64,000 bases of DNA from positions 1 to 64,000 of the forward strand of contig NZ_JAIVFO010000003.1 of assembly GCF_029991245.1 (NCBI RefSeq), in the 5' to 3' direction. Position numbers and translations under genes: made by a program. The notes beneath the pieces are model-generated. The model had not been told where the DNA came from. It was given only the letters and a program-made list of their open reading frames with translations, and made no database searches. The stretch comes from Xanthobacter autotrophicus (lineage in GTDB: Bacteria > Pseudomonadota > Alphaproteobacteria > Rhizobiales > Xanthobacteraceae). This document shows positions 37,839-64,000 of this stretch, piece by piece. Each line of letters begins with the position of its first letter. Position 1 is the first letter of the stretch.

Positions 37839-37853
37839 CGTGTCTCTCGTGCC

Positions 37854-37880
37854 ATCGGCCCTGTCTTGCGAAGGGCCGAT
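37854..37880. promoter_or_regulatory. Intergenic hairpin between matA and matB
   Basis: Perfect 9-bp inverted repeat ATCGGCCCT / AGGGCCGAT with a 9-base loop in the 63-bp gap between the two malonate genes. On the transcribed strand no T tract follows, so it may adjust mRNA stability or relative expression rather than end transcription. Confidence 0.5.
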
Positions 37881-37901
37881 CCGTTTTTGGGTCGATCCGC
37901 C

Positions 37902-40942: not shown

Positions 40943-40988
40943 CCTCCGAAGGCGGAGGCCACACGTTCGAATCGTGTCGGGTGCGCCA
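40912..40988 (+). tRNA. tRNA-Arg (anticodon CCG)
   Basis: A 77-base complete tRNA ending in an encoded CCA. Acceptor stem GCACCCG pairs with CGGGTGC, discriminator G. D loop GCTCAGCTGGATAGAGC; anticodon arm CCGCCCTCCGAAGGCGG with CCG in the loop; T arm with GTTCGAATC. It is the last, intact member of a tandem series of partial copies. Confidence 0.97.
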
Positions 40989-47973: not shown

Positions 47974-49458
47974 TTAAAGCGGGTAGAGCGGTGGCTTCTC
48001 CTTGATGGTCATCCATTGCCACTGGGTGAATTCGTCCCAATTGGCCGGTCCGCCGTGACGCGAGCCGTTGCCGGAGGCACCGAAGCCGCCCATCGGCATG
48101 GTGCCGTCATCGTGCACCGTCTGGTCGTTGATGTGGAGCAGGCCGACATTCAGTTGATCGGCAATTCTCTTCGCCCGTTCAATCGATGGGCTGAGGATGC
48201 CAGCGCTCAGGCCATACTCGGTGTCGTTGGCGAGACGTACGGCCTGTTCGTCGTCCTCGAAGGCGGTGATCGATACTACGGGGCCGAAGATCTCCTCTCG
48301 GAACGCAGGCATTTCGGGTGTCACGCGGTCGAGCACCGTGGGATTGAAGAAATTTCCTTGCCCCGGCCCGCCGGCCAGCAGCCGCGCGCCGGCCGCGATG
48401 CTGTCGTCGACGATCCTCCGTACGCGCTCCAGCTGGACACGGTTGATGAGGGGCCCGAGAGCCACCTCTTCAGTGAACGGGTTGCCGACCGGCAGCGCGC
48501 GGGCTTTTTCCGCCATCCGCTCGGCATAGGCCTCGGCGAGGGATTTGTGGACAAGGTGGCGTCCCGCGCTCATGCAGATCTGGCCCTGGTGGAGCCAGGA
48601 GGCCCAGGCACCATTCGAAACGGCCCGGTCGAGATCGGCGTCATCGAGGATGATGAGCGCATTCTTCCCGCCCAGCTCCAGCGCCACCTTCTTCAGGTGG
48701 CCACCTGCCAAAGCCCCGATCTTGCGCCCGACTGCCGTGGAGCCGGTGAACGAGATCATGGCAATGTCGGGGTCCGCGACGAGGGCTTCGCCAGCTTCCA
48801 CGTCGCCCGGCAGCACGTGCAGAAGATCCTCCGGTAGGCCGGCTTCCGCAAATATGGAAGCCAGCAGCAGCCCGCCGGAGACAGGCGTGCGCGGATCGGG
48901 CTTCAGAACGACGGCATTCCCCATCGCGAGTGCTGCTAAGATGGCCCGGCCCGTGAGGATGAAGGGAAAATTGAAGGGTGTGATGACGCCTACTACGCCG
49001 TGCGGGACACGCCGCGCCAGGGAAAGGCTGCCTCCGTCCGCGGGTAGGACAAGGCCCCGCGGCTGGGTCTGGACGGCCGCAGCCTCGTGGAGAAGATGGA
49101 CCACCGACGTGATCTCGAACTGGGCCTTGAGCTTTACGGCCCCGGTCTCCCGCACGATCCAATCGCGAATGAGCGCGGCGCGGCTTTCCACGAGGGTCGC
49201 GGCACGGCGAAAGCTGGCGCCGCGCTCTTGGTACGGCAGGGCGATCCACCCGTGTTGCGCGGCACGCGCGGCGCGAGCAGCGCGTCGCACGTCCTGCGTC
49301 GAAGCCCGCCCCACCTCCGCAAGAAGATCTCCGGTGGCGGGTTCTTCCACCTGGATGGTGCCGCCGGAAAGCGTGGTCCATCCGCCGCTCCAGCCCTTGC
49401 AGTGCCAGGGGTGCACTTCGCTCGTCGCGTTCACGGCCGATCCTTTCGTTTCCAACAT
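47974..49458 (-). CDS. Aromatic aldehyde dehydrogenase (vanillin/benzaldehyde type)
   Basis: A 494-residue NAD(P)-dependent aldehyde dehydrogenase. Motifs: the N-terminal PWHCKGWSGGW style seen in benzaldehyde/vanillin dehydrogenases, the cofactor loop TPFNFPFILTGRAI, FTGSTAVGRKIG, the general base Glu in ALELGGKNAL, the nucleophile Cys in GQICMSAGR, and EEIFGPVVSI. It should oxidise an aromatic aldehyde such as vanillin to the acid, feeding VanAB. The start is ATG at 49458 with GGGGAAC upstream; a GTG at 49473 is the longer option. It is the last gene of the minus-strand run from the outer-membrane protein. Confidence 0.9.
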   Translation of the reverse strand: MLETKGSAVNATSEVHPWHCKGWSGGWTTLSGGTIQVEEPATGDLLAEVGRASTQDVRRAARAARAAQHGWIALPYQERGASFRRAATLVESRAALIRDWIVRETGAVKLKAQFEITSVVHLLHEAAAVQTQPRGLVLPADGGSLSLARRVPHGVVGVITPFNFPFILTGRAILAALAMGNAVVLKPDPRTPVSGGLLLASIFAEAGLPEDLLHVLPGDVEAGEALVADPDIAMISFTGSTAVGRKIGALAGGHLKKVALELGGKNALIILDDADLDRAVSNGAWASWLHQGQICMSAGRHLVHKSLAEAYAERMAEKARALPVGNPFTEEVALGPLINRVQLERVRRIVDDSIAAGARLLAGGPGQGNFFNPTVLDRVTPEMPAFREEIFGPVVSITAFEDDEQAVRLANDTEYGLSAGILSPSIERAKRIADQLNVGLLHINDQTVHDDGTMPMGGFGASGNGSRHGGPANWDEFTQWQWMTIKEKPPLYPL

Positions 49459-49501
49459 TCTCTTGTTCCCCACCGGGGTGGAACCGTCGGCAGCTCCGCC
49501 T

Positions 49502-50971
49502 TCAAATCTTCATGACGAACGGATTGGCCACCGGGGCGGCATAGTTCATCCAGACGCTCTTGACCTGGACGAAATTACGGATCGCATCAATGCCGTTCTC
49601 GCGGCCGAGCCCGCTGTTCTTGTAGCCGCCGAAGGGCACCATGTAGCTGAGCGCGCGATAGGCGTTTACCCAGACGGTGCCGGCCTCCAGGCGGTTGGAG
49701 ACTTCAAATGCCCGGCGAAGATCGCGCGTCCAGACGCCAGCAGCCAGCCCATAGAGGGTGTCGTTGGCGATCCTGATTGCATCTTCGGTGTCGCGGAACC
49801 TCATCACGCAAAGGACGGGCCCGAAGATCTCCTCGCGCGCAATGCGCATCTCACTGGTGACCTCGGAGAAGATGGTGGGGGGGACAAACCATCCTCTCTC
49901 GAAGGGATTGTCGCCGCCGAGGCGGCGGCGCGCGCCCTCGGCGAGGCCAACGCAGATATAATCGTTGACCCTGTCATACTGCGCCTTGGTCGTGATCGGC
50001 CCGATCTGCGTGTGCGGATCAAACGGATCGCCGACCTTGACCGAAGCCATCATTGTGACGAGCTTCTCGATGAAACGTTCATAGATGCTGTCCTCGACTA
50101 GGAGGCGGGATCCGGCAATGCAGCTCTGGCCGGAAGCGCCGAAGATACCGGCGATGGCGCCGTTGGCCGCGGCCTCCAGATCGGCGTCCGCGAAGACGAT
50201 ATTGGCAGACTTTCCGCCGAGCTCGAGGTCGACATGCTTGAAGCCCCTGGCCGCGGCTTCGTTGATGGCGCGCCCGGCAATCTCCCCGCCCGTGAAGCAA
50301 ATCCTGGAGACGAGCGGATGGCGCACGAGCGCATCCCCCACCTCCGCGCCATAGCCCGTGACAACGTTGACGACGCCGGGCGGAAATCCCGCCTCCTCAA
50401 CCGCCCGCGCAAATTCGAGGGCGGAGGCGGAAGCGTGCTCCGACGGCTTGAGCACAATCGTGCAACCGGCCGCAAGCGCCGGCGCGATCTTATTTGCAGC
50501 GAGCAACAGGGGAGAGTTCCAAGGCGTGAGAGCCGCGACGACCCCGATCGGCTCGTGTCTCGTATAGGTGAAGAATCCGGGTCGTTCGACGGGGGGCACC
50601 GTACCTTCGAGCTTGTCCGCGAGCCCGCCATAATAGTAGAAATATTGTGGGAGATAAGCGGCTTGGGCTTGCATCTCGGCAAGGAGCTTGCCGTTGTCCT
50701 GAGCTTCGATCCGCCCAAGATGGCCGGCATCACGCGTGAGGATGTCGCCGAGACGCCGCATGAGCGCGCCACGCGCGGTGGCACTGATGCCAGCCCATGG
50801 CTGGCTTTGCAGCGCTGCGTGGGCCGCCTGCACCGCCCTGTCGGCATCTTTGGTGTCACCCCGGGGAATGCTTGCCCACACCTGCTCGGACCAAGGTTCA
50901 AGGGATGGGATCCGTTCGCCTGAGGCCGCGTCTTCCCAAGCGTTATCGATGAACATCTTGTAGATCTTCAC
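49502..50971 (-). CDS. Second aldehyde dehydrogenase
   Basis: A 489-residue aldehyde dehydrogenase of the betaine/semialdehyde type. Motifs: TPWNSPLLLAANKIAPALAA, FTGGEIAGRAIN, base Glu in DLELGGKSAN, nucleophile in GQSCIAGSR, EEIFGPVLCV, and GGYKNSGLGRENG. It differs clearly from its neighbour 44 bp downstream, so it likely handles a different aldehyde, for example an aliphatic fragment of the side chain or an aryl-alkyl aldehyde. The start is GTG at 50971 with GGGAGG five bases before. Confidence 0.9.
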   Translation of the reverse strand: MKIYKMFIDNAWEDAASGERIPSLEPWSEQVWASIPRGDTKDADRAVQAAHAALQSQPWAGISATARGALMRRLGDILTRDAGHLGRIEAQDNGKLLAEMQAQAAYLPQYFYYYGGLADKLEGTVPPVERPGFFTYTRHEPIGVVAALTPWNSPLLLAANKIAPALAAGCTIVLKPSEHASASALEFARAVEEAGFPPGVVNVVTGYGAEVGDALVRHPLVSRICFTGGEIAGRAINEAAARGFKHVDLELGGKSANIVFADADLEAAANGAIAGIFGASGQSCIAGSRLLVEDSIYERFIEKLVTMMASVKVGDPFDPHTQIGPITTKAQYDRVNDYICVGLAEGARRRLGGDNPFERGWFVPPTIFSEVTSEMRIAREEIFGPVLCVMRFRDTEDAIRIANDTLYGLAAGVWTRDLRRAFEVSNRLEAGTVWVNAYRALSYMVPFGGYKNSGLGRENGIDAIRNFVQVKSVWMNYAAPVANPFVMKI

Positions 50972-51510: not shown

Positions 51511-52521
51511 TCATTGAGCACGAAAGGGGTGTATGGGCAGGGCAGAAGACTTGACCGGCGCCGAATAGTGGCCGCTCCGGTCCGTCGTGATGGGTTTGGA
51601 CGAGGTTATTACACCCGCGATCTCCTGCGCCTTGATATTGCAGGCACGTGCCTCGGCGAGCACCCAGCCGCGAAAACGTGTCAATACAGCATTGCGGCCA
51701 GCGCGATCGGACCAGAGCAAATTGTAGCTGTCCGTGTCAGGGACAAAGGTGGGAAAGGGGACGACAAGCTTGCCGCTGGCCAGATCGTCTATCAGCAGCT
51801 GAACCTGGCCCACGGCGACCCCGAGCCCTTCCGCTGCCGCCTGGTAGGCCAGACTCGAACTATCGAAACGGAGCCGCTGCGCTCCCGAAAGATCCGGCTG
51901 TTCAATGGCGTTCAGCCAGACCTTCCAATTGTTGGGACGCGCCGAAGTATGGAGCAGCGTGTGGTGTCGCAGGTCTTCCACGCGTCGTAGCGGGAAAGGG
52001 CCGTCGAGGAGGGCCGGACTGCAAACCGGCACGAGATCTGGACGGAAGAGTTGCGTGCTTTTGGCATGGGGCGTGTCCTCCTGGCCGAGGCGGATGGCGA
52101 CGTCCACCGGCTCGCACCGGAAGTCCACGCGGCCGAGCGCCGTGGTGATCTGGAGATTTCGATCAGGCTGAATCGCATGATACGACAACAGCCTGGGGGT
52201 CAGCCAACGCAAGACGAAGGTCAACGACGTGGACACGCGCAATGGCTGTCCTTCTGGAATATCCATGAGGGCCTCGGTCGCTCCTGCAATCTGCGCGATG
52301 GTTTCGCTGATGGTCTTCAGATATGAGCTGCCTTCGGCGGTGAGCTGGACTTTCCGCGTGGCGCGAACGAAAAGCTGGATACCAAGAAACTCTTCGAGCG
52401 TACGGATTTGCCGGCTCACCGCGCCAGGCGTTACATTCAGCTCTTGCGCTGCTGCAGCGAAGCTCAGGTGGCGTCCTGCGCACTCGAAGGTCCGAAGGGC
52501 GTTGAGAGGTGGTATGCGCAT
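51511..52521 (-). CDS. LysR family regulator (GcvA-like)
   Basis: A 336-residue LysR-type regulator. The N-terminal helix-turn-helix MRIPPLNALRTFECAGRHLS FAAAAQELNVTPGAVSRQ style is the GcvA subgroup. The effector domain follows from about residue 90, with LRWLTPRLLSYHAIQPD and a hinge near DLVPVCSPALLDG. The ATG at 52521 is chosen over one 15 bases upstream. It lies between the transporter gene and the aldehyde dehydrogenases, all on the minus strand, so it may be part of that run and control it. Confidence 0.88.
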   Translation of the reverse strand: MRIPPLNALRTFECAGRHLSFAAAAQELNVTPGAVSRQIRTLEEFLGIQLFVRATRKVQLTAEGSSYLKTISETIAQIAGATEALMDIPEGQPLRVSTSLTFVLRWLTPRLLSYHAIQPDRNLQITTALGRVDFRCEPVDVAIRLGQEDTPHAKSTQLFRPDLVPVCSPALLDGPFPLRRVEDLRHHTLLHTSARPNNWKVWLNAIEQPDLSGAQRLRFDSSSLAYQAAAEGLGVAVGQVQLLIDDLASGKLVVPFPTFVPDTDSYNLLWSDRAGRNAVLTRFRGWVLAEARACNIKAQEIAGVITSSKPITTDRSGHYSAPVKSSALPIHPFRAQ

Positions 52522-52633
52522 GTTCGGTCTCCGCAATTGCCAGTCCGCCGCGCGGCCGACCTACGTTCAGGCGAGGTAGAGCCTGAGACCGCTTCCGGCC
52601 TCAGGCCAATGTCCGGCGACTACGCCTCAACTC

Positions 52634-54067
52634 TCAGCCCGCAGTCTCGGGCCGCAGAACTTGGGCGGGACTTCTCGGATTCACACTGATGCGTTCCAGG
52701 AGCGCATATCCGATCGCGAACAGAACCACGAGCGAGCCGTAGCCGATGCGTTGACTCTGGGTCGCAGCGGTTACAACTCCGACCGTCATCGGGGCGAGAA
52801 AGGCAGTGGCCGTTCCCGAGAGGGCGAACAGCCCGAAGAACTGGGCGACGAGATGAGGCGGAGAAAGCCGGGCCATGAACGCGCGCGCCGATATGAAGCA
52901 CATGGCGGCAAAAATGTTCAGGACCAGTGAAATGAGAATGTAGGTGAGTTCCGGCCAAGTCTTGAAGATCGGTCCTTCCCAGACCGGCCGCGCCAGCTCC
53001 GGATCGGAGTAGAAAAAGATTTCCTGGCGCCCGATGCTGACAGCCAGCAGCACGGACAGCATGGCGCAGGCCACGCCGAAAGACAGAGTGAACTTCGAGC
53101 CATAGCGATCATCCATGCGCCCGCCGAGAAGGCTGCCCAAAATACCGCCGGCAGCCATCACCAAAAGCATGATGGCGAGTTCCGTCGGTCCCCATCCAAA
53201 GATGCCCGCGGCATAGATGCCGTAGAACATGAGAGCGCCGACAAGGGCGTCGTTGACGAACATCCGGGCGATGAGAAGGCGGCCGACATCGGGATAGGAT
53301 TTGAGGTGGGACAATGTCTTCTTTACTTCCACCAGGCCGCTGCGCATAGCGGAGATCAGCGTTATGCCGCTGCGCGGCGTGTCGGGAGAGAAGGCGAGCA
53401 GCATGCCGACGCCGAAAGCCATCCCCACCGCTGTCAGCGGTCCAACGATCCGGATATCCTCAAAAGACGCTTGGCTCAGGTGGAAGAGCGGCTCCGAGAA
53501 AAAGGTCCAGTTCGAGCGCCCCGGCAGGGTAAAGCAGACGAGGACCAATAGGGTCAGGATCAGCGACGACCCCTGGCCCAGTGCCCCCGTGAGACCTGAG
53601 ACGAAACCCAGCTTGTTCGGTGGCGCGACAGTCGTGACCATCGCGTTCTGAAACAGAATATTGTATTCGATCAGAAAATTGAGAACCCCGAGAAGGAGCA
53701 GCGCCTGAAGGACGCCGATGGGACCGCCAGGATAAACGAACCACAGGCTCGCCATCAGTGGTACCATCAACATGGCACCGAATGCGATCCAAGGCTTTCG
53801 CGCACCGCCGCGATCGGCAATGGCCCCGATAAACGGCGCGGCGAGGCCGATGGCGAGACCTGAGGCCATGACCCCGAAGCCGTAGAGCGTCTGCCCTCTC
53901 ACGGGATCACCAACCACGTGCTCAGTAAAATAGGGCGCAAAGAGAAAAATGCTGACAAGAAGAATATAGGGTACGCGGCCAGCCTCCATGAGCGCCCAGC
54001 TCACGTATCCGATGGTTGTACGCTCACGATCTGCCGGCGGTCCACCATCGTTATTCATGATTTTCAT
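52634..54067 (-). CDS. MFS transporter, UMF1 (Atg22-like) type
   Basis: A 477-residue membrane protein with 11-12 hydrophobic segments, resembling the UMF1/Atg22 subgroup: first helix region TIGYVSWALMEAGRVPYILLVSIFLFAPYF-like, GLAAPFIGAIADRGGARKPWI between helices 2 and 3, and FISARAFMARLSPPHLVAQFFGLFALSG near the end. Members are linked to amino acid or peptide efflux in some organisms, but in catabolic islands they often serve as substrate uptake candidates. The ATG at 54067 has GGAGGAA five bases upstream. It lies between the LysR and outer-membrane protein genes. Confidence 0.85.
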   Translation of the reverse strand: MKIMNNDGGPPADRERTTIGYVSWALMEAGRVPYILLVSIFLFAPYFTEHVVGDPVRGQTLYGFGVMASGLAIGLAAPFIGAIADRGGARKPWIAFGAMLMVPLMASLWFVYPGGPIGVLQALLLLGVLNFLIEYNILFQNAMVTTVAPPNKLGFVSGLTGALGQGSSLILTLLVLVCFTLPGRSNWTFFSEPLFHLSQASFEDIRIVGPLTAVGMAFGVGMLLAFSPDTPRSGITLISAMRSGLVEVKKTLSHLKSYPDVGRLLIARMFVNDALVGALMFYGIYAAGIFGWGPTELAIMLLVMAAGGILGSLLGGRMDDRYGSKFTLSFGVACAMLSVLLAVSIGRQEIFFYSDPELARPVWEGPIFKTWPELTYILISLVLNIFAAMCFISARAFMARLSPPHLVAQFFGLFALSGTATAFLAPMTVGVVTAATQSQRIGYGSLVVLFAIGYALLERISVNPRSPAQVLRPETAG

Positions 54068-54176
54068 TTCTTCCTCCAAAAAATATGGCTGTCTGTTTCA
54101 GCTCTTATTGGTCATTCGGACACGGGTACCATGAAGAGCGAAAGCGGCCTGAAGGCCAGCCTGCGCTGATCGTTAT

Positions 54177-55160
54177 TTAGAGCTTGGTGACCAAGCGGAC
54201 CGTAAGACCCATCGATTCTGTGTTGTTTTCTCCCCACACCGTAAAGAGGCCCTTGAACATGATGTTGAAGGGTCGCTGGTCGACGAAGAAGTCGTAGGCC
54301 ACAAGCGGCCCGATATTAACCGCGCTTGCTCGGTTTCCGTTGTTACCAACGGCGACTCCAAACAAAGTGTCGTCTGAAATTTGCCGAAATCCAGTTCCGG
54401 TAAGCCCGTATTGAAGAGGGCCTTTTCTTTCTGTCAGCGCGAAATCGAGACTGATCACCGGGCCAGTCGTATAGTTTGTTTCCGTATTTTCGGTGTAAAA
54501 ATTGAAGAACATCCGCGCACTGAATTCTGTCGCGTCTCCAAAAGTCGGGCCAAGCCAGCTTTTCGTGGTATGAGTGATACCAATATTTGGCGAGAATGTG
54601 TAAAAATTCGACCCGATATTGATCCCCTGCTCGGCATTGTATGCGCCTGTCGGGAAGTTCATCCCGAAGCCCACGAGGAAAGCTGTTCCGTATGGAATCG
54701 GGATCGGCGCAGGGGGTTGACTGGCGAAGTCTGCGCTCGGGACGAATTTGCTCCAGACGAAGATGTCCGAATAGGTGTCACGCAGCCCCTGTGCACAACG
54801 CTTGGTCGCTTCAGTCAAGCCGAAGCATGTCTCTTGAACACCGACGAAGATGGAAGACGCGAGGCGGCCACCCAATACGTCAAGGTCATAGACATGGAGC
54901 CATCCCAAGCCGCCGAACTCCACATTTCCGGTCGCGGGCAGCCAGTCATCAGCCGTATACCATCCCGTCAGGTCGATGCCTCCGGCGACGGCTGCGCCAT
55001 AGTTGCCGGGCGGCGGCAGGAGGGCCGAGCGGATGTCCGTCCCTCCAATGGGGCCTGCCGGCGAAATGGATTCGGCGGCATGCACCACAGGCGCTCCCAG
55101 CCCCAACGCGACACAAAAGATCGCAGATGACAGACTTCCTTTGTCGAATAGTTCCTTCAA
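54177..55160 (-). CDS. COG4313-type outer-membrane protein (aromatic catabolism porin)
   Basis: A 327-residue outer-membrane beta-barrel like SphA/MetA-pathway porins found in aromatic-degradation clusters. A signal peptide (LSSAIFCVALGLGAPVVHAA) precedes a barrel with many Gly/aromatic strands: GNYGAAVAGGIDLTGWYTAD, FLVGFGMNFPTGAYN, a terminal FKGLFTVWG and GLTVRLVTKL. The start is TTG at 55160, with GGGAGGGG just upstream; longer frames to 55244 read through AT-rich leader. Base use is clearly AT-richer than the genome. It probably lets a hydrophobic aromatic compound across the outer membrane. Confidence 0.8.
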   Translation of the reverse strand: MKELFDKGSLSSAIFCVALGLGAPVVHAAESISPAGPIGGTDIRSALLPPPGNYGAAVAGGIDLTGWYTADDWLPATGNVEFGGLGWLHVYDLDVLGGRLASSIFVGVQETCFGLTEATKRCAQGLRDTYSDIFVWSKFVPSADFASQPPAPIPIPYGTAFLVGFGMNFPTGAYNAEQGINIGSNFYTFSPNIGITHTTKSWLGPTFGDATEFSARMFFNFYTENTETNYTTGPVISLDFALTERKGPLQYGLTGTGFRQISDDTLFGVAVGNNGNRASAVNIGPLVAYDFFVDQRPFNIMFKGLFTVWGENNTESMGLTVRLVTKL

Positions 55161-55464
55161 GGTCCCCTCCCAAAGTCCGGTTATATTCTTCCCATCGGGT
55201 TGAATTATTTTTGATACGCGTCGGCGTACAGAATTTTTGTTCATATTATACAGTATAATTTCGGATATGACGTTTGTGCAAAATCCACTCGGAACAACTT
55301 ATAATTTGTAATAATTAAACGTATTGCGTAATTTTTATGAATTTATACCATGATAAATCTATCATATATACTTGTAACTATAATATCGTTAAATAAAATA
55401 TAAGGCATTAAATCGTGGATTCTATAATGAATAGCCGTACGCGCCCAAGGTTCTGCTTTATCTG
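55161..55464. promoter_or_regulatory. AT-rich control region of the outer-membrane protein gene
   Basis: About 300 bp, by far the most AT-rich stretch in the window (55240-55440). It contains ATTATACAGTATAAT at 55245-55259, a 15-bp near-palindrome 85 bases before the TTG start, whose TATAC/GTATA core recalls the vanA operator. It probably holds the porin promoter. Confidence 0.55.
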
Positions 55465-56195: not shown

Positions 56196-57320
56196 ATGCC
56201 GGATTGGGACTTGCGGGATAAGGCCTGCATTGTTGGTGTCGGTTCGACCGCCTATGGCGTGTTCCCGGAAACCGACGCGGTGGGCCTGGGAATCGATGCC
56301 CTTCGGGCGGCCGTGGACGATGCCGGCATTACTTTCAACGATATTGACGGCGTCATTCTCAATCGCTTGCCCTACGACCGGTTCGCCGAGGTCGCTAATC
56401 TGCAAACGCCTTTCCTGATGCCCACCGAAGCCCACGGCCGCTTCTCGGCGATTGCCTTGAACATGGCTGTGGAGGCGCTGGCAACCGGCCAAGCCAAGAC
56501 AATCGCGCTCGTCTATGGCAATGACGGGCGATCCTCAAAGATGAAATACGGCGGCGGTGCCGGCTTTTGGGCTCCCTGGGGCTTCACCTCCCCCGGCGCC
56601 AGCCACGCCATGATGTATCGTCGGCATATGGCGCGCTTCGGGACCACGCCGGAAGATCTCGCGCATGTGGCCACGGCGTTTCGCCACCACGCGACCATGA
56701 ATCCCAATGCGGTGATGCAGAAGCCAATCACCATCCCGGATCATCAGGCAAGCCGCCATGTCTGCGACCCGCTGCGTCTGCTCGATTATTGCCTCATCAA
56801 TGACGGTGGTGTCGCCTGGATCATGACCACTTCCGAGCGCGCCAAGGACATGAAGCAGAAGCCGGTCTACGTATCGGGCTACGCGCGTCAGGACGACTTC
56901 TCGCAAAACAGCTATCCGGCAGACGATTTTTGGTATCCCGCGCTGCAGAAAGTCGCGACGCAGATCTACGAGCGTGCCGGCATAGGCCGGGACGACATCG
57001 ATGGACTGATGATTTACGACAATTTCTCGCCCACCGTGCTGTTTGCGCTTGAAGGCCTCGGCTTCTGCAAGCAGGGCGAGGGTGGCGCCTTCGTCCGCGA
57101 CGGCACGCTGCAACTCGGCAAGGGCCGCTGGCCGACCAATACGAGTGGCGGCCACCTGTCCGAAAGCTACATGCAGGGGTGGGCGCTGATCGTCGAGGGC
57201 GTGCGCCAGCTCCGCGGCGGCCAAGTTCCCCCTGAACGCCAGATCGCCAATGCCAAGGCGCTGCAATTCCTGCTAGCCACGCCGGTTTCAGCCTCCATCA
57301 TCCTGAGGAACGACGCATGA
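56196..57320 (+). CDS. Thiolase-fold aldolase-like protein (Ltp2 / lipid-transfer type)
   Basis: A 374-residue thiolase-superfamily protein without the thiolase nucleophile: the region where Cys is expected reads HGRFSAIALNMAVEAL. It begins DKACIVGVGSTAYGVFPETD. Tyr274 (MIYDNFSP) and Tyr325 (GGHLSESYMQG) sit in motifs shared with Ltp2, the steroid side-chain retro-aldolase that works with a DUF35 protein. The next gene is a DUF35 protein overlapping by four bases (ATGA). The likely job is retro-aldol cleavage of a beta-hydroxyacyl-CoA to an aldehyde and a short acyl-CoA. GAGG precedes the ATG. Confidence 0.85.
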   Translation: MPDWDLRDKACIVGVGSTAYGVFPETDAVGLGIDALRAAVDDAGITFNDIDGVILNRLPYDRFAEVANLQTPFLMPTEAHGRFSAIALNMAVEALATGQAKTIALVYGNDGRSSKMKYGGGAGFWAPWGFTSPGASHAMMYRRHMARFGTTPEDLAHVATAFRHHATMNPNAVMQKPITIPDHQASRHVCDPLRLLDYCLINDGGVAWIMTTSERAKDMKQKPVYVSGYARQDDFSQNSYPADDFWYPALQKVATQIYERAGIGRDDIDGLMIYDNFSPTVLFALEGLGFCKQGEGGAFVRDGTLQLGKGRWPTNTSGGHLSESYMQGWALIVEGVRQLRGGQVPPERQIANAKALQFLLATPVSASIILRNDA

Positions 57321-57724
57321 GCTACGTGAAGCCGCTGCCCGAGCCCGACAAATGGAGCGGGCCATTCTTCGAGGCTGCTCGCAACGAGAGGCTCGCGGCA
57401 CAGCGCTGCACGGCGACTGGCAAATTCTTCTTTCCGCCTGCGCCCGTCTCCCCCTTCACCCGTGACAAGAACTGGTCTTGGGAGACGCTCTCCGGCAGGG
57501 GAAAGATCGCCTCGTTCGTGGTGATGCACCAGAAATATTTCCCCGGCTTTGCCGACGAGATTCCCTACGCCGTCATTGAGGTTGAGCTCGACGAGGGCGT
57601 CCGGTTGATCTCCAACATCATCGAGCTGGGCAGCCTCACGCTCGAGGTCGGCATGCCAGTGGAAGTGGTTTTTCTGAAAGCCACGGACGATTTCACCCTG
57701 CCGGTTTTCAAGCCGGCGACCTGA
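57317..57724 (+). CDS. DUF35 OB-fold protein (aldolase partner)
   Basis: A 135-residue DUF35 protein. The N-terminal helix is followed by the position of the rubredoxin-like zinc ribbon (RLAAQRCTATGKFFFPPAPVSP), but only one Cys remains, so metal binding is probably lost. The OB-fold part contains WSWETLSGRGKIASFVVMHQ and PYAVIEVELDEGVRLISNI. DUF35 proteins pair with thiolase-fold enzymes and help bind acyl-CoA. The start overlaps the stop of the thiolase-type gene, strong evidence for a complex. Confidence 0.9.
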   Translation: MSYVKPLPEPDKWSGPFFEAARNERLAAQRCTATGKFFFPPAPVSPFTRDKNWSWETLSGRGKIASFVVMHQKYFPGFADEIPYAVIEVELDEGVRLISNIIELGSLTLEVGMPVEVVFLKATDDFTLPVFKPAT

Positions 57725-57825
57725 TCTGGAGTCGGGTTCGATCAACTTGCACCGCGAGCTGATCGCGGCGGGTTCCGGGTGGACTGAAAAGGTGGTGGTC
57801 CACCAGATGAAATGCGGAGACAGCA

Positions 57826-58605
57826 ATGAGCGATGAAAATCTGATCGTGGTCGAAGAAAAGGAAGGGTACGCCGTTCTTCGCATCAACCGTCCCGACAAA
57901 CGCAATGCCATGAGCAAGGCGGCCCGTGCGCAGATGCTCGCGGCCCTCAAGACGCTTGAAGGCAAATATGGCGCGGTCGTCATAACTGGCACCGATACCA
58001 GCTTCTGCGCAGGCATGGATCTGAAGGAAGCCAGCGCCGACCGCGAAGCCGGCGTCGAGCCCGATCCGGCCACGTCCTGGAATGCGGTCAACGAGGCGCT
58101 GCGCGCCCACCCCTCCATCTTCATCGCCGCCGTGAATGGTATCGCACTTGGGGGCGGCGTCACACTCATCAATATCTGTGATCTCGCCATCGCGTCCGAC
58201 CGGGCGTCGATGGGCATGCCGGAGATGGGGTTCGCCACCTATCCAGGTCTTGCCGGACCCTCGACGCAATATTCGCTGCCGCGCAAGCACGCCGCCTGGA
58301 TGATGTTCACCACCGAGCGCGTGGATGGGGAGACGGCGGTGCGCTGGGGCCTCGTCAACAAGGTCGTGCCCCACGAAAAGCTCCTGTTGGAAGCGGAGGC
58401 GGTGGCCGCCAAGATCGGGCAGTTCAACCAGGTCGCGCTCGCGGTAAGCAAGCGCGCCATGGACGAGGTTCCGGTAAAGATCGACTGGGCGGCGGCTTTC
58501 GAGTACGGCGTCGAGAAGAATCGCGAGATCGGTCGGAATACGACCGCCGCCAACGAAGGGCTGGCGCGCTTCTCGAAGGGCGAGCGGCTGGTCGGCCAGG
58601 GCTGA
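57826..58605 (+). CDS. Enoyl-CoA hydratase/isomerase family protein
   Basis: A 259-residue crotonase-fold protein. Oxyanion-hole segments are CAGMDLKE (about 61-68) and GIALGGGVTL (about 105-114). Glu133 (MGMPEMGF) is in the position of a catalytic Glu. The AGMDLKE string also occurs in hydroxycinnamoyl-CoA hydratase-lyases, but the rest of the sequence is not clearly of that type. Expected reaction: hydration of an enoyl-CoA to the beta-hydroxyacyl-CoA that the Ltp2-like protein would cleave. GGAG precedes the ATG by six bases; it lies 101 bp after the DUF35 gene. Confidence 0.88.
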   Translation: MSDENLIVVEEKEGYAVLRINRPDKRNAMSKAARAQMLAALKTLEGKYGAVVITGTDTSFCAGMDLKEASADREAGVEPDPATSWNAVNEALRAHPSIFIAAVNGIALGGGVTLINICDLAIASDRASMGMPEMGFATYPGLAGPSTQYSLPRKHAAWMMFTTERVDGETAVRWGLVNKVVPHEKLLLEAEAVAAKIGQFNQVALAVSKRAMDEVPVKIDWAAAFEYGVEKNREIGRNTTAANEGLARFSKGERLVGQG

Positions 58606-58838
58606 GTGGATCCCGGCAGGCCAACGGAATGATGCGCCTGCCAATGCAACCACTCCCGTCGATCCGCCGGCGGCGACGCGGCGGGAGTGGGAAATCTGGT
58701 GCGGTCCTGCATCCGCTGCAAACTGTGCTGTCTGCTACAGAACATTTCGGTCGGTTTGAACCGGAAGCTGACCGGATAAGCGTTTTCCGCGCTTGAGCTT
58801 AGGGCATAATCGACCCGAACGTAGAATTCGGAACTTAC
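58606..58838. other. Intergenic region before the ferredoxin gene
   Basis: A 233-bp gap with no supportable gene; it may hold a separate promoter for the ferredoxin gene. Nothing else is recognised. Confidence 0.35.
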
Positions 58839-59156
58839 ATGGCGAAAATTGTGATAATCGATCGCAGCCTCGACGAAACCCAGGTCGAGGGAAAAGAGGG
58901 TCTCTCCGTGATGGAGATCATCCGGGACAGCGGGTTTGACGAACTGCTGGCTTTGTGCGGTGGGTGCTGCTCTTGCGCTACCTGCCATGTCTACGTGGAT
59001 CCGACGTTTTCATCTTTGCTACCTGAGATGAGCGATGAGGAGCATGATCTGCTCGACGGTTCAAGCAGTCGTCGCGCCGAATCCCGGCTTTCGTGTCAGC
59101 TGTTCTTCTCTGATGCGCTCGACGGGCTCCGCGTCACGATAGCGCCAGAGGATTGA
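58839..59156 (+). CDS. Adrenodoxin-type 2Fe-2S ferredoxin
   Basis: A 105-residue electron carrier. Cluster ligands by the adrenodoxin pattern (Cys-x5-Cys-x2-Cys and a distant Cys) are Cys40, Cys46, Cys49 and Cys86; Cys43 and Cys44 are extra cysteines inside the loop CGGCCSCATC, unusual for the family. Such ferredoxins mostly serve cytochrome P450s or Rieske oxygenases. Neither a P450 nor a matching reductase lies in the window, and VanB carries its own 2Fe-2S domain, so the partner is unknown. A GC-rich hairpin follows immediately. Confidence 0.9.
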   Translation: MAKIVIIDRSLDETQVEGKEGLSVMEIIRDSGFDELLALCGGCCSCATCHVYVDPTFSSLLPEMSDEEHDLLDGSSSRRAESRLSCQLFFSDALDGLRVTIAPED

Positions 59157-59182
59157 GCGGGAGCAGGGCCTGCTCCTCCCGC
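59157..59182 (+). terminator. Hairpin after the ferredoxin gene
   Basis: GCGGGAGCAGGGCCTGCTCC with CTCCCGC: a GC-rich stem with a bulge, starting right after the TGA. No T tract follows. It lies before the insertion sequence. Confidence 0.5.
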
Positions 59183-59232
59183 ATCTTGGAGCCATGCTGC
59201 CGAAACGTACCTGGATCGCACGAAGGGGCTAA

Positions 59233-60090
59233 GAACACCTAACAAAACGATTTATTAACCATGTTTGGGCGAGCCTTGGGCATGGCCAAGCAGCTTTTGC
59301 CCGATGCCCTTTGGGCCGAGATCGCCCCGTTGTTTCCTCCCGCTGCGCCGCGCCCGAAGGGCGGGCGGCCTCGGGTGGAGAACCGCGAGGCGCTGACCGG
59401 CATCCTGTTCGTGCTGTACACCGCGATCCCGTGGGAGCGGCTGCAGGTCGAGGTGGCCGGATGCTCGGGCATGACCTGCTGGCGACGGCTGCGGGCCTGG
59501 CAGGATGCCCGCTTGTGGGACGAGATCCACCGCCACATGCTGGAGCGCCTCAGCCTCGCCGGCGAGATCGACTGGTCGCGCGCCAGCGTGGACTCCTCGT
59601 CGGTCCCGGCCAAAAGGGGGGCGACGCGATCGGCCCGAACCCGACCGATCGCGGCAAGCGGGGCACCAAGCGGCACATCGTGGTCGACCGAAGGGGCCTG
59701 CCTCTCGCCGTCGTCCTGACCGGAGCCAACCGTCACGACAGCATGGCGCTGACCACCGTGGTCGATGCCATCCAGCCTGTCCGCCAACGACGCGGTCGTC
59801 CCCGTAAACGGCCCCAAAAGCTCCACGCCGACAAGGGCTACGACTTCGACCGTCGCCGGAAGGACCTGCGCAAGCGGGGCATCACGCCTCGCATCACGCG
59901 TCGCGGCATCGACAGTTCCGAGCATCTCGGCAAGCACAGATGGGTGGTCGAGCGCACCTTCGCCTGGATCAACAAGTTCCGGCGTCTCACCATCCGATAC
60001 GAACGCCACGTCGACCTCTACCGCGCCTTCCTCGTTCTCGCCGCCGCTATCATCTGCTTCAGAGCCATCGACAGGTTTTGTTAGGTGTTC
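59233..60090 (+). mobile_element. IS5-family insertion sequence (IS427-like group)
   Basis: An 858-bp element with 16-bp perfect terminal inverted repeats (GAACACCTAACAAAAC at 59233-59248, its complement at 60075-60090). It is flanked by a direct TAA (59230-59232 and 60091-60093), matching the TNA duplication of the IS427 group. It carries one transposase gene in two frames. It sits in the gap between the converging ferredoxin and CoA-transferase genes. Confidence 0.92.
59261..60084 (+). CDS. IS5-family transposase, two overlapping frames
   Basis: The first frame (59261-59719) encodes the N-terminal part, MAKQLLPDALWAEIAPLFPP to RASVDSSSVPAKRG. The second, in the -1 frame and ending at 60084, encodes the DDE catalytic part: GTKRHIVVDRRGLPLAVVLT, HADKGYDFD, and the WVVERTFAWINKFRRLTIRYE end. 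The frames meet at CCAAAAGGGGGGCG (about 59609), a run suited to programmed frameshifting, as usual in this group. The catalytic residues look intact, so the element may be active. Confidence 0.9.
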
Positions 60091-61307
60091 TAAATCAGCA
60101 CCTCCTGTGCGATCAGGACATCTATTTCCTCTGGGGACTTGCCGAGCCGCACCTCAAGGATTTCGCGGGTGTGCTCTCCCAGCAGCGGTGCCGCGAGGCG
60201 TGGACCAACGGGCCCGGACGCAAAGCGGAAGGGTGGGCCATTGTAGATGGAGTTGCCCATCTCGGCATGGAGCAGGTAACGCCAGTGGTCCCGGTGCCGC
60301 ATCTGCGGATCGCGATCGATCAGGTCGGCTGCGTTCTGCACCACCCCTGCCGTTACGCTGGCGGCCTGCAGCGCGTCCATCAATTCGTAGCCATCGCGTT
60401 GGAGGGTGTGCGTGGCGATCGCGCGGTCGATCGCCACGCAATTTTTGAGGCGATTTTGCAGCGCGCGCCACTCGGGCCTGTCCAGGGAGTCCGCGCCGAG
60501 GATCCGGGTGAGCGCTCGCCATTGGCCATCAGTGCCGACGCTAATGGCAATCCAGCGGTCATCCCCGGTCGTCGGGTACACACCGTGCGGCGCCTTGGCG
60601 GCATCGCGGTTGCCCTGCCTTGTCGCGACGCGCCCATTGACCTGGAAGTCCATGACCGGGGTCGGCATCAGCGCGAGCATGGGCTCGGTCTGCGCCATGT
60701 CGATCTTCTGGCCTTCGCCGGTCCGCCGTTTGTGGCGCAGCGCGGCCATGACAGCGAAGGCGCCGTGGCAGGGATTGGGAACGTGATCGGGATAGTTCGT
60801 GCCGGTCCCAGTCGGCTCGCGGTCGGGGTAGCCGCTCAGCCCCAGGAAGCCGGTGAGCGCGGCCATGGTGATGCCGTAGCCCAGCATCATCCGGTCCGGC
60901 CCTTCGTCCCCGTTCATCGACATGCCGATATAGATGAGCCCAGGGTTCAGCGCGACCAGCTGGTCATAGCCGACACCGAGCTTCTCCATCGTACCGGGCC
61001 GGAAATTGTTGGCGACGATGTCGGCCTCGGCGATGAGCGCGCGCACGATCTCGACGCCCCGCGGATCCTTCATGTTCACCGTTATGGAACGCTTGGAGCT
61101 GTTGCGGTCGGCGAAATAGCCGCTGCGATTCACGCTGCGCACGCCGTCCTTGAAGGGCGGGGCAAGGCGCAGGCTGTCGAGCGATCTGGTGCTTTCCACC
61201 TTGACGACGTCGGCCCCCATGTCGGCCAGCAGCTTGGTCATGTACGAGCCGGCGCCGACCCAGCAGAAGTCGATGATACTCACACCAGCCAAAGGCAGCC
61301 TGCTCAT
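60090..61307 (-). CDS. CaiB/BaiF family CoA-transferase, second of a pair
   Basis: A 405-residue class III CoA-transferase that moves CoA between acyl groups through an enzyme-bound anhydride. It starts MSRLPLAGVSIIDFCWVGAGS, with LLADMGADVVKVES and the catalytic Asp in EGQKIDMAQTEPM. AGGAGG lies seven bases before the ATG at 61307, which overlaps the stop of the upstream CoA-transferase gene (ATGA); the longer frame is not coding. The two proteins may act as a pair. The stop codon TAG is partly formed by the last base of the IS element (60090). Confidence 0.9.
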   Translation of the reverse strand: MSRLPLAGVSIIDFCWVGAGSYMTKLLADMGADVVKVESTRSLDSLRLAPPFKDGVRSVNRSGYFADRNSSKRSITVNMKDPRGVEIVRALIAEADIVANNFRPGTMEKLGVGYDQLVALNPGLIYIGMSMNGDEGPDRMMLGYGITMAALTGFLGLSGYPDREPTGTGTNYPDHVPNPCHGAFAVMAALRHKRRTGEGQKIDMAQTEPMLALMPTPVMDFQVNGRVATRQGNRDAAKAPHGVYPTTGDDRWIAISVGTDGQWRALTRILGADSLDRPEWRALQNRLKNCVAIDRAIATHTLQRDGYELMDALQAASVTAGVVQNAADLIDRDPQMRHRDHWRYLLHAEMGNSIYNGPPFRFASGPVGPRLAAPLLGEHTREILEVRLGKSPEEIDVLIAQEVLI

Positions 61308-62470
61308 GCCGTAACCTCCTTGGCGGTGTTCGATGCCGTCGGGCTGCCGAGGCGCGGCGCGGCCGAGCGAAGCGCCCACGGCGTCTCGCCAAGCTTGTAG
61401 GGCGCACCGGGCATCCGCACTCCCGCAAGCGGTGTGCCGGACGGCGACGGCACGAAAAAGCCCCGATACGCAAGTTGAGCGTTATCCAGGAGATCAGGTG
61501 GCATGGACATGGGGGCCATCGGTACACGCCACTGTCGTGCAAGCACGTAGAGCTCGGCCTTGGTCTTGCCGGCAGCATAGGGAAGAAACACGCGCCCGAA
61601 GGCCTCTTCCGCTCCCGCGGCCTTGTCGTTCCAGTCGGGGCTCGCGAACAGCGCAGCGCCCGCCACGCCTTCAGCCTCCATCCACTCTGCGAAATTGCCC
61701 CACATCTGCGTGTCGCCGATGCCGCCGGCGAGGAGATAGATTTCGCCGTCTTGGCATTTGTAGATCCCAGTTCCGGCCTGCTTCGCACGCCCCGTCCGGT
61801 TGCGAACCCGGCCTTCGAGCTGATAGACCTGAGCAGCATTTTCGAGCGCCATGACGATCGATTCCTGGATCGAGACATCGATCAGCTCGCCCTGGCCGGT
61901 CTGCTCGGCGTGGAGGATCGCGGTAAGCGAAGCTACGGCGGCGAATTGGTCGGCCGCCAGGACCCCCTGCTCGCCATAGGCCACCACCGGAGCGGCATCG
62001 GGAAAGCCGGCCATGGTCAGAAGGCCGCCCATCGCCATCAGGGTGAGGTCGTCGCCCGTCATGTGGGCGTATGGCCCGCTCGCGCCGAAGGGGGTGATGC
62101 GGGTGCTGACGAGCGCTGGGTTGGCCTCGCACAGCTTGTCCAGGTCCACGCGGCCAAAAGCGGGATGGTCGGCGAGGATTACGAGATGCGCGTCAGCCGC
62201 GAGACGCGTGAGCGATGTCATCCCCTCCTCGCTGGCGAAGTCCAGCACCACGCTGTCCTTGTTGGCCGCGAAATATGCGAACGCCAGGCTGTTGTCCGGT
62301 CCCGGGACATCGCCGGCGAAGGGCGGCTTGCGCCGCATCGGGGACCCGCCCGGCGGCTCGACGAGGGTGACCGAAGCGCCCAGATCGGCGAACAGCTTGC
62401 CGCAATAGGCGCCGTACAGCCCCGACAATTCCAGAACGCGTATGCCCGCCAGCGCAGATTTCGCCATCAT
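61304..62470 (-). CDS. CaiB/BaiF family CoA-transferase, first of a pair
   Basis: A 388-residue class III CoA-transferase. Motifs: LAGIRVLELSGLYGAYCGKLFADLGASVTLVEPP, ITPFGASGPYAHMTGDD, and the likely catalytic Asp in GELIDVSIQESIV. It is diverged from its partner downstream (388 against 405 residues, different N-terminus), which suggests a heteromeric pair rather than a recent duplication. The ATG overlaps the stop of the acyl-CoA dehydrogenase gene by one base (TGATG), so all three are coupled. It probably activates the growth substrate with CoA from another acyl-CoA. Confidence 0.9.
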   Translation of the reverse strand: MMAKSALAGIRVLELSGLYGAYCGKLFADLGASVTLVEPPGGSPMRRKPPFAGDVPGPDNSLAFAYFAANKDSVVLDFASEEGMTSLTRLAADAHLVILADHPAFGRVDLDKLCEANPALVSTRITPFGASGPYAHMTGDDLTLMAMGGLLTMAGFPDAAPVVAYGEQGVLAADQFAAVASLTAILHAEQTGQGELIDVSIQESIVMALENAAQVYQLEGRVRNRTGRAKQAGTGIYKCQDGEIYLLAGGIGDTQMWGNFAEWMEAEGVAGAALFASPDWNDKAAGAEEAFGRVFLPYAAGKTKAELYVLARQWRVPMAPMSMPPDLLDNAQLAYRGFFVPSPSGTPLAGVRMPGAPYKLGETPWALRSAAPRLGSPTASNTAKEVTA

Positions 62471-63687
62471 CAGAACTGCTTCGGCCTGCCGCCGCGCAGC
62501 AGTTCGCGCGCGATCAGCCAGCGATGGATTTCCGAGGGTCCTTCAACGATCCGCAGCACGCGCACCTCGCGCGCCATGAATTCCAGCGGCAGCTCCTTGC
62601 TCACCCCCATGCCGCCAAACAGCTGGATCGCGCGGTCGATCACGCGGGTCGCCATTTCGGTCGCCTGCACCTTCACCATCGAGGCTCCACGACGGATTTC
62701 GCTGCGCTTGTCATCGTTCGAGGCATGATCGAGCTGCCAGGCTAGGCGGTAGGTGAGCAGCTTCACCATCTCGATTTCCTGATAGGAGTCGGCGATCCAC
62801 CACTGGATCGCCTGGCGGTCGGCGAGCGGGGCGCCGAAGGTCCTGCGCGTGTTGGCCTGCTCGATCATCATGTCGAGGGCGCGCTGCGCGTAACCCAGGC
62901 ACCAGCAGGCGCATTCCATGCGGCGGATGCCGAGCCGGTTCTGCAGCGGCGCGAAGGCGTTGCCCACCGCGCCGAGCACCTGAGCGTCATCGAGCGGGAC
63001 ATCGTCGAAATTGACCGCATAAGCGTGGAAGTTGCCGCCGATGACGGAAAACTCCTGCGGGACGGTGACGCCGGGTGTGCCCTTGTCCACGAGAAAGGCA
63101 GTCATGCCGCCTCGCGTTCCCTTCTCCCTGTCCGTGACGGCGATGACGATCATGAAATCGGCTGTCCGGGCGTTGCTGATCCACATCTTCTCGCCGTTCA
63201 GCACCCATTTGTCGCCGCGGCGCTCGGCCTTCAAGCGAATGCCGGCCGCGTCGGCGCCAGCGCCGGCTTCCGTCAGCGCCAGCGCTGACTTCTTTTCGCC
63301 AGTGGCATAGGGCAGCACGTAGCGCTCGATCTGGTCTCCCGTCGCGCATTCCGACAGGAAGTAAAGGTTGGGGCTGTCAGGCGGCAGCGTGAAGGGCGTG
63401 ATCGAGTAGAACATCTGCTCGGTGACCACGCACTTGATCAGCGCGCCCATGTCGTGACCGCCGAAGCGTTCGGGCACGTCGATCCCCCACAGACCGAGCT
63501 CCTGCGAGCGCGCCTTGAGCCGCGCTTCCACATCAGGCGGGATCAGCGGATCGCCGCCCATGCCGCGGTTTGCCTCGCGCTCGATCACGAGCCGCTCGAG
63601 CGGGATCAGCTCATCGGCGACGAAGCGGCGCGTCAGTTCGCCGATCATGCGAGCGTCTTCCGTAAGGCTGAAGTCCATTTTTTCCAT
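62470..63687 (-). CDS. Acyl-CoA dehydrogenase
   Basis: A 405-residue FAD enzyme that introduces the alpha-beta double bond in an acyl-CoA. Motifs: ALTEAGAGADAAGIRLKAER, GDKWVLNGEKMWISNARTADF (FAD and substrate loops), NTRRTFGAPLADRQAIQWW, QLFGGMGVSKELPLE and the end RIVEGPSEIHRWLIARELL. The Glu of this last segment is not certain to be the catalytic base. ATG at 63687 (MEKMDFSLTEDARM) is preferred; further in-frame starts at 63744 and 63801 are unlike the family. It is first of the three-gene unit with the CoA-transferases. Confidence 0.92.
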   Translation of the reverse strand: MEKMDFSLTEDARMIGELTRRFVADELIPLERLVIEREANRGMGGDPLIPPDVEARLKARSQELGLWGIDVPERFGGHDMGALIKCVVTEQMFYSITPFTLPPDSPNLYFLSECATGDQIERYVLPYATGEKKSALALTEAGAGADAAGIRLKAERRGDKWVLNGEKMWISNARTADFMIVIAVTDREKGTRGGMTAFLVDKGTPGVTVPQEFSVIGGNFHAYAVNFDDVPLDDAQVLGAVGNAFAPLQNRLGIRRMECACWCLGYAQRALDMMIEQANTRRTFGAPLADRQAIQWWIADSYQEIEMVKLLTYRLAWQLDHASNDDKRSEIRRGASMVKVQATEMATRVIDRAIQLFGGMGVSKELPLEFMAREVRVLRIVEGPSEIHRWLIARELLRGGRPKQF

Positions 63688-64000
63688 GCTTTTCGTTTTG
63701 AGCAAGACCTTGCGCGGAGGATGGCTGGCAGGCTGGTCTGCCATCAACCTAAATAATCGACTGTATTGTTGATTTATTCTCACGCATCGGCCGACCCTCA
63801 TGCCGTGCGGAAATCAAATGGACACATGGCTCACATGTGTCCCCTCATGGTTGAGGCTGAGACAAGCGTCGGGCAGAAATATCACTTGAATTGGGCTCCG
63901 GCCAAAGGATTATACATGATGTCTTCGGATCTGTGCGTGCTGTCACGCGCATGATGACCATCGTCATCAGCCAGTGATCGGCCCGGTGGGTCGATCAGGG
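63688..64000. promoter_or_regulatory. Upstream region of the acyl-CoA dehydrogenase unit
   Basis: About 310 bp to the window end. It is AT-rich near 63750-63780 (AATAATCGACTGTATTG), the probable promoter of the minus-strand unit. A short open frame on the plus strand at 63766-63954 has no recognisable features or convincing ribosome-binding site and is not called. Confidence 0.4.

Follow-up and report, generated by a model that had tools for sequence, protein, structure and literature searches.

What reaction sequence is encoded by a group of acyl-CoA genes that shares a genomic island with a vanA-vanR-vanB module in Xanthobacter autotrophicus? The genes lie in a stretch of 64,000 nucleotides (the window; positions 1 to 64,000 of contig NZ_JAIVFO010000003.1, RefSeq assembly GCF_029991245.1), and at their centre is a thiolase-fold protein encoded together with a DUF35 protein. 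Our answer, held with moderate confidence, is that the cluster would cut the side chain of an aryl acid, probably a methoxylated one, in a CoA-dependent manner that resembles the bbs operon and ends in a retro-aldol cleavage. Release of an aromatic aldehyde is likely from the sequences and the predicted fold; a ferulate-type substrate and a vanillate product are unproven. This reading is built on protein families, active-site residues, a predicted fold and gene linkage in four genomes, from which all substrates and reactions are inferred. All genes named in an earlier, sequence-only reading of the window were recovered by family searches. That reading had placed two aldehyde dehydrogenases and the van genes at 47.9-51 kb, which holds for both dehydrogenases (47974-50971); the van genes are actually found at 43.9-46.8 kb. 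The genes in question are as follows.

56196..57320, plus strand: thiolase-fold protein (THL), a predicted Ltp2-like aldolase (Pfam Thiolase_C_1, fold match, motif counts)
57317..57724, plus strand: DUF35 / OB_ChsH2_C partner (PF01796, PF12172)
57826..58605, plus strand: enoyl-CoA hydratase of the crotonase family (ECH; PF00378)
60090..61379, minus strand: class III CoA-transferase subunit CaiB_B, similar to a BbsEF subunit (PF02515)
61304..62470, minus strand: class III CoA-transferase subunit CaiB_A (PF02515; 65.6-66.8% to three sphingomonad orthologues)
62470..63801, minus strand: acyl-CoA dehydrogenase (ACAD; PF00441, PF02770, PF02771; 79-85% to sphingomonad orthologues)
49502..50971, minus strand: aldehyde dehydrogenase (ALDH) 1 (PF00171; 64-65% to sphingomonad orthologues)
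47974..49473, minus strand: ALDH2 (NCBIfam aldehyde dehydrogenase families, scores below the cut-offs)
45769..46839, minus strand: VanA_C Rieske oxygenase (PF19112)
45027..45755, minus strand: GntR/FCD regulator of the van module (family search and gene order)
43935..44972, minus strand: VanB-like reductase (Fer2, FAD_binding_6, NAD_binding_1)

The THL is likely an Ltp2-type retro-aldol enzyme without the nucleophilic Cys of thiolases. Its Pfam match is to Thiolase_C_1 alone, with no match to Thiolase_N. Counted on a pairwise alignment, Tyr274 and Tyr325 of the THL align with Tyr294 and Tyr344 of TcLtp2 (PDB 6ok1), which are described in passages of PMC12329534 as the catalytic base and the catalytic acid, respectively. 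Passages of the same paper place a Gly in the Sal aldolase at the position of the nucleophilic Cys of SCP-2 thiolase (PMC12329534). Tyr274, Asp275, Tyr325 and Gly81 are each found in 81 of 81 sequences, comprising the window THL and 80 relatives (the best 80 of 199 loci from one genome_contigs scan, which also supplied the sphingomonads below). The Gly81 column is Cys in a bbs-like thiolase of Rhodococcus opacus, which also matches Thiolase_N. When an AlphaFold model of the THL (pLDDT, the predicted local distance difference test score, of 86) was compared with the PDB, the top match was the Ltp2-ChsH2(DUF35) structure 6ok1 (TM score 0.89), 4u4e ranked third, ahead of benzoylsuccinyl-CoA thiolase and of the Sal aldolase; this fold comparison and the sequence profile described below used 32 sequences hand-picked from the 81. 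The BbsB model scores the THL at 103 bits (cut-off 750), which leaves it outside the BbsAB thiolases. The earlier proposals of an Ltp2-like protein lacking the thiolase Cys and of retro-aldol chemistry are thus supported by active-site residues and predicted fold.

The THL and DUF35 genes overlap by 4 bp, and a DUF35 gene is present at 78 of the 80 relatives' loci. In 68 of these 78 it is co-oriented with the THL gene and begins at -60 to +200 bp relative to the end of the latter; the other 10 matches are not adjacent to the THL and could be further copies. Of 79 DUF35 homologues, 68 have an intact four-Cys zinc ribbon and 11 have lost it, namely those of the window, where three of the four Cys are gone, and of stretches L024-L030, L032, L034 and L035. 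On a quick THL tree, the loss maps as one change to one branch (SH-aLRT 99). The ribbon Cys were thus lost once in this clade, while the partner THL stays conserved. The window pair shares with Ltp2-ChsH2(DUF35) and Sal-Shy(DUF35) a thiolase fold without the Cys and an adjacent DUF35 gene, and it keeps the Tyr pair of Ltp2. In contrast to those systems, where DUF35 is joined to a MaoC domain, the DUF35 protein here is stand-alone with a degenerate zinc ribbon, the hydratase is a crotonase, and the neighbours are genes of aromatic type.

Activation by CoA transfer had been proposed from the sequence, and a class III CoA-transferase pair is indeed present. Among solved structures, CaiB_B is closest to 9fn0_B, a subunit of the benzylsuccinate CoA-transferase BbsEF (348 bits, next structure 187; 44.6% identity over 395 positions). 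The comparison with BbsEF covered this one subunit. CaiB_A, CaiB_B and 9fn0_B share a Glu at one aligned place, which we take to be the place of the catalytic Asp of formyl-CoA transferase. The true start of CaiB_B is probably 61307, judging from where orthologues align, and that of ACAD probably lies near 63687.

As described in passages of PMC10818641, the bbs order consists of activation by BbsEF with succinyl-CoA as donor, dehydrogenation by BbsG, hydration by BbsH, oxidation by BbsCD and thiolytic cleavage by BbsAB. By sequence, the cluster repeats these gene types with a predicted aldolase in the thiolase slot. It shares with the bbs operon a heteromeric CaiB CoA-transferase, an ACAD, a crotonase, a short-chain dehydrogenase/reductase (SDR) and a thiolase-fold protein with DUF35; it differs in the aldolase at the place of BbsAB and in the additional ALDHs and oxygenases. 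A glycyl-radical enzyme like pyruvate formate-lyase (PFL; PF02901) was found in none of four genomes (the host and three sphingomonads), which argues that the cluster does not serve anaerobic toluene degradation.

The gene set extends past the window, and the contig ends at 74,305. The genes beyond the window encode an SDR, a metallo-beta-lactamase (MBL)-fold protein, a protein without a Pfam match, a ferredoxin reductase, a P450, a beta-lactamase-fold serine hydrolase (BLA) and a GMC oxidoreductase. Twelve genes (THL, DUF35, ECH, ALDH1, CaiB_B, CaiB_A, ACAD, LysR, SDR, MBL, GMC and BLA) recur together at 54-85% identity in all three sphingomonads, which are Sphingobium psychrophilum, Sphingobium sp. 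D43FB and Novosphingobium rosa. The P450 and ferredoxin genes are present in two of the three, as the D43FB contig ends first, and one ferredoxin match covers about half of the protein; the ferredoxin reductase recurs in one. One of the underlying co-location counts took best matches at E 1e-8 with half coverage, so it misses weaker homologues. Only eight CoA_transf_3 genes exist in the whole 4.96-Mb genome, and the same genes are co-located in three other genomes; therefore, co-location by chance is unlikely, according to a density argument without a shuffled control.

ALDH1 is the orthologue of the gene directly 3′ of ECH in the sphingomonad operons, and ALDH2 has no clear orthologue (34-40% at best in the relatives). 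A second ALDH gene lies between DUF35 and ECH in D43FB and N. rosa, and N. rosa also carries the beta and alpha subunits of electron-transfer flavoprotein (ETF) and an ETF-quinone oxidoreductase, as read directly from the sequence. In all three sphingomonads, two genes for VanA_C Rieske proteins lie about 4 kb or less from the THL and are transcribed away from it. Beside this pair, N. rosa encodes FdhA (708.8 bits, curated cut-off 637), and the starts of closely similar proteins are found at the same place in the other two. N. rosa further encodes PurU and a protein resembling DesA/LigM (300 bits, below the cut-off of 800). Of all the evidence for a methoxylated aromatic, the Rieske pair with FdhA is the strongest; its source is the sequences of the relatives and not the window.

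On this basis, the following reactions are proposed. A heteromer of CaiB_A and CaiB_B would load an acid of the type Ar-CH2-CH(R)-COOH with CoA, most likely from succinyl-CoA. ACAD would form the alpha,beta-double bond and pass electrons to ETF, and the crotonase would hydrate the product to Ar-CH(OH)-CH(R)-CO-SCoA. The THL and DUF35 would split this hydroxyacyl-CoA to give an acyl-CoA and an aromatic aldehyde, the base being Tyr274 and the acid Tyr325. An ALDH would oxidise the aldehyde to the aromatic acid, and a VanA-type Rieske oxygenase would take off methyl groups as formaldehyde. Upstream, the P450 with ferredoxin, the GMC oxidoreductase, the SDR, the lactonase-like MBL protein and the serine hydrolase may make the acid from a larger compound; the conservation of the P450, GMC, lactonase-like and hydrolase genes suggests such a larger or more complex starting compound. 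The CoA-transferase and the upstream genes, judged by sequence, speak for an aryl acid that is branched, perhaps of the succinate type, and derived from a larger plant compound. The pathway is probably applied to plant-derived methoxyaromatics.

A more specific substrate, which we offer tentatively and consider unlikely, would be lignans of the butyrolactone type or comparable alpha-benzylated lactones. Ring opening would fall to the MBL lactonase, and the GMC oxidoreductase and an ALDH would convert the freed CH2OH to a second carboxyl, so that a dibenzylsuccinate results. Succinyl-CoA would be the donor from which the BbsEF-like transferase loads this acid with CoA. Retro-aldol cleavage, each time after dehydrogenation and hydration, would then occur twice and yield two aromatic aldehydes and succinyl-CoA, by which the CoA donor is regenerated. 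If true, anaerobic toluene metabolism would have in this version an aerobic counterpart that ends in an aldolase step.

Several observations weigh against a bbs-like, retro-aldol reading of the cluster. Within the THL, the oxyanion-hole His296 of Ltp2 is replaced by Asn276 in 80 of 81 sequences (His in one), so that the motif is YDNF here and YDHF in Ltp2 (YDHF or YDCY across Ltp2 and Sal); because of this replacement, we treat the THL as a related clade and do not file it as Ltp2 proper. By sequence, 4u4e, a thiolase structure of no assigned function with a YDSF motif, is as near to the THL as Ltp2: it ranks first in a single-sequence search (206 bits versus 186 for 6ok1), and a 32-sequence profile gives 291.3 bits for 6ok1 versus 290.4 for 4u4e. 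Since the zinc ribbon of DUF35 is degenerate, formation of a THL-DUF35 complex is an assumption. Only the CoA-transferase is specifically bbs-like; the crotonase and the ACAD best match general members of their families, and the PDB matches of the latter are general acyl-CoA dehydrogenases. A CoA-transferase pair of Aromatoleum (37%) adjoins UbiD decarboxylase genes, without a thiolase. The conserved SDR could oxidise the hydroxyacyl-CoA instead, although the Cys for thiolysis is absent. Further points of this kind concern the end of the pathway and the distribution of the cluster, and they are given below with the alternatives on which they also bear.

The first alternative is a simple C6-C3 acid, such as ferulate or dihydroferulate, that is activated by CoA transfer, dehydrogenated if saturated, hydrated and cleaved to vanillin, which would go on to vanillate and protocatechuate. 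We regard this route, which includes the aryl-propanoid substrate of the sequence-only reading, as possible but unlikely. In its favour, the crotonase has a single-Glu pattern, with Thr at the position of the first Glu of the compared hydratase structures and the second Glu, E133, in 23 of 23 sequences, and its best NCBIfam match is p-hydroxycinnamoyl-CoA hydratase/lyase. The score (155.9 bits) is below the cut-off of 276, and this family is not the top PDB match with a 23-sequence profile; thus we rejected the assignment and keep the pattern as a hint. No hydratase/lyase above the family cut-off is encoded anywhere in the host genome, which counts for the C6-C3 route and also upholds the proposed departure from the classical Fcs/Ech route. 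Both routes are expected to yield an aromatic aldehyde by retro-aldol cleavage of a 3-hydroxyacyl-CoA; in the cluster, however, hydration and cleavage would be on separate proteins, a CoA-transferase replaces the ligase, and the crotonase scores below the family cut-off. No AMP-binding match was found among the island genes scanned with Pfam, a search for Fcs that did not cover the whole genome. An AMP-binding ligase gene at 36309-37838, outside the island, adjoins malonyl-CoA decarboxylase (36309-39272) and probably belongs to malonate metabolism, not to feruloyl-CoA synthesis. Two features speak against a C6-C3 acid: the CoA-transferase is nearest to the benzylsuccinate enzyme, whose substrate is a substituted succinate, and ferulate needs no P450, GMC, MBL or hydrolase proteins, yet their genes are conserved with the core.

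The van module and the ALDHs on the same island also favour the C6-C3 route. The window VanA has a VanA_C domain with a linked VanB-like reductase, as in VanAB, and is the sole VanA_C match in the host genome. It is 83% identical to proteins on Roseomonas plasmids, which have the same vanA-GntR-vanB row near genes annotated as extradiol dioxygenases, and 36-42% identical to the sphingomonad Rieske proteins, to which it is not orthologous. Its best PDB match is dicamba O-demethylase, and no matched chain is named VanA. By sequence, the window module is apparently a different, separately acquired one, and the link between the THL cluster and an O-demethylase seems to have arisen twice. Such a repeated origin speaks for a functional tie, but also suggests vanAB to be a module of its own. 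The proposed O-demethylase tie stands in the relatives, where a VanA_C Rieske and at least one ALDH are linked in three of three, and less so for the window vanAB itself; the separate origin also counts against the C6-C3 route.

The onward step to protocatechuate, which the sequence-only reading included, is not borne out. LigB (PF02900) has no match in the host genome (99.99% complete), and LigB-family genes are present in all three sphingomonads. PcaGH is expected to give two PF00775 matches. The host has one, which by eye reads like catechol 1,2-dioxygenase and adjoins a muconate-cycloisomerase-like gene. Without LigB and with a single intradiol dioxygenase, protocatechuate would be formed in a host lacking those ring-cleavage enzymes, a search that did not include protocatechuate 2,3-dioxygenase. 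This weighs against both the C6-C3 route and the end of the pathway that we prefer.

In the second alternative, the substrate of the core is a P450-oxidised non-aromatic ring system, terpenoid- or steroid-like, and the O-demethylases are neighbours with another job. The closest characterised aldolases work on steroid side chains, according to the passages that describe them, and a P450 with ferredoxin, a GMC oxidoreductase and an SDR are part of the set. A Rhodococcus opacus plasmid combines a CoA-transferase pair (36%, 34%) with a YDCF aldolase-type protein, a P450 and a ferredoxin. More distant THL clusters lack VanA, as was found by counting neighbours within at most 10 kb on each side; as 31 of the 80 loci are shorter than 20 kb, all counts are lower bounds. 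Among 11 clusters with a THL at 60-66% identity, ECH is found in 10, CaiB in 9, ALDH in 6, ACAD in 1 and VanA in none, and the last count also tells against a methoxylated substrate. At 45-54% identity (n = 66), the numbers are 39 for CaiB, 27 for ACAD, 10 each for ECH and ALDH, and 1 for a weak VanA match. A cluster on a Chelativorans plasmid (THL 64%, DUF35 51%, ECH 51%, ACAD 56%, BbsEF-like pair 44%/34%) has no Rieske or ALDH gene annotated in 31 kb, in an incomplete annotation, which weighs in the same direction. The expected co-occurrence with vanA and ALDH genes is seen in the three close clusters and fails for VanA in all 11 clusters at 60-66%, at least 6 of which have an ALDH. Against a non-aromatic ring, however, the Rieske pair is linked in three of three sphingomonads, with FdhA tested in one, and the CoA-transferase is of the benzylsuccinate type. 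We consider this alternative quite unlikely.

The third alternative, true bbs-like thiolysis to an aroyl-CoA after oxidation by the SDR, shares its enzyme types with bbs (as described in passages of PMC10818641) and would use the conserved SDR, but is very improbable, as the nucleophilic Cys is replaced by Gly81 in 81 of 81 sequences, Thiolase_N gives no match, and the Cys-bearing version sits beside two SDRs on a Rhodococcus plasmid. That plasmid, R. opacus pLP414 (L152 11944-17069), carries a BbsEF-like CoA-transferase, a DUF35 protein, a Cys-bearing thiolase and two SDRs, and by sequence this set looks like the thiolytic counterpart.

As for its wider distribution, the core of THL, DUF35 and CaiB, with or without ECH, is widespread, and the methoxy-linked full set is rare, occurring in the host and three sphingomonads among the genomes examined. 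In the family of N. rosa, 1 of 397 sampled genomes matched at E 1e-120 (N. rosa itself), and among genomes of the class, 4 of 385 matched at E 1e-100, including the host, with the other three at 54-56% identity. A Variovorax plasmid has a CoA-transferase pair (56%, 45%) and a YDNF THL (40%) with Phe at the second Tyr, together with DUF35, ECH, SDR and lactonase-family genes. In Variovorax beijingensis (stretch L028 2239-6195), a second, diverged hydratase-thiolase-DUF35 set is followed by an AMP-forming-ligase-like gene, with no CoA-transferases, which could be a version of this module that works with a ligase. The clade of YDNF thiolase-fold proteins with DUF35 (L038-L103) is wide, with members in Actinomadura, Chloroflexota and others. 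On the nearest annotated plasmid records, YDNF-type proteins are labelled merely "thiolase family protein".

In the host, the THL-DUF35-ECH operon (plus strand) faces the CaiB-ACAD operon (minus strand), with a ferredoxin gene and an insertion sequence in between, at the place of the ALDH1 orthologue in the relatives. Third-position GC is mostly 0.62-0.83 in the island versus mostly 0.85-0.95 upstream of it. The other features of the island are:

58839..59156, plus strand: 2Fe-2S ferredoxin (PF00111; 61% to the N. rosa gene)
59232..60091, plus strand: IS4/5-type insertion sequence with the transposase in two frames (perfect 17-bp inverted ends)
51511..52536, minus strand: LysR-type regulator (54-56% to the orthologue adjoining ACAD in the relatives)
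52634..54079, minus strand: major facilitator superfamily (MFS) transporter (PF07690; connected by position only)
54177..55244, minus strand: outer-membrane protein of the Phenol_MetA_deg family (PF13557; connected by position only)
40912..40988, plus strand: tRNA-Arg(CCG), bordering the island with its lowered third-position GC

The perfect 17-bp terminal repeats of the insertion sequence are at 59232-59248 and 60075-60091, and its right end overlaps the CaiB_B stop codon. The ferredoxin orthologue of N. rosa adjoins the P450 and ferredoxin reductase genes. No homologue of the Phenol_MetA_deg protein or the MFS transporter was found in the stretches of the sphingomonad relatives. The MBL-fold protein is nearest to the AttM lactonase family (139.6 bits, cut-off 390). 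The substrate class of the P450 could not be read from its best structure match (138 bits) or from 1039 plasmid records, none of which matched at 60% identity or above. The Pfam-less protein, an alpha/alpha-toroid protein at contig positions 65923-67020, is conserved in two of the three relatives and has a distant match (52 bits) to AprG, presumably an apramycin enzyme, from which we draw nothing for its role. A non-ribosomal peptide synthetase with condensation, adenylation and carrier domains is encoded at 1149-5366, in the host part of the window.

Among known pathways, the pinoresinol pathway of Novosphingobium rhizosphaerae LY likewise represents catabolism of a methoxylated aromatic by Novosphingobium and uses a reductive PinZ and an oxidative PinU, according to PMC12607616. 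It was set aside as a match, as the terms CoA-transferase, aldolase, thiolase and lactonase are absent from the main text (PMC12607616). The known beta-5 pathways were likewise set aside, as term searches found no core-enzyme terms in the main texts (PMC11323797, PMC10866074; CoA-transferase searched without the hyphen). In the titles, abstract openings and selected passages of open-licence literature, we found no account of the cluster or of both chemistries joined. The proposed pathway would unite the succinyl-CoA-dependent activation of anaerobic toluene degraders with the aldolase cut of steroid side chains, in oxygenase-bearing bacteria. If this is right, the cluster would provide a ligase-free trimming of branched aryl side chains to aldehydes, and the YDNF proteins would be a clade of probable aldolases for CoA esters, with members in Pseudomonadota, Actinomycetota, Chloroflexota and others.

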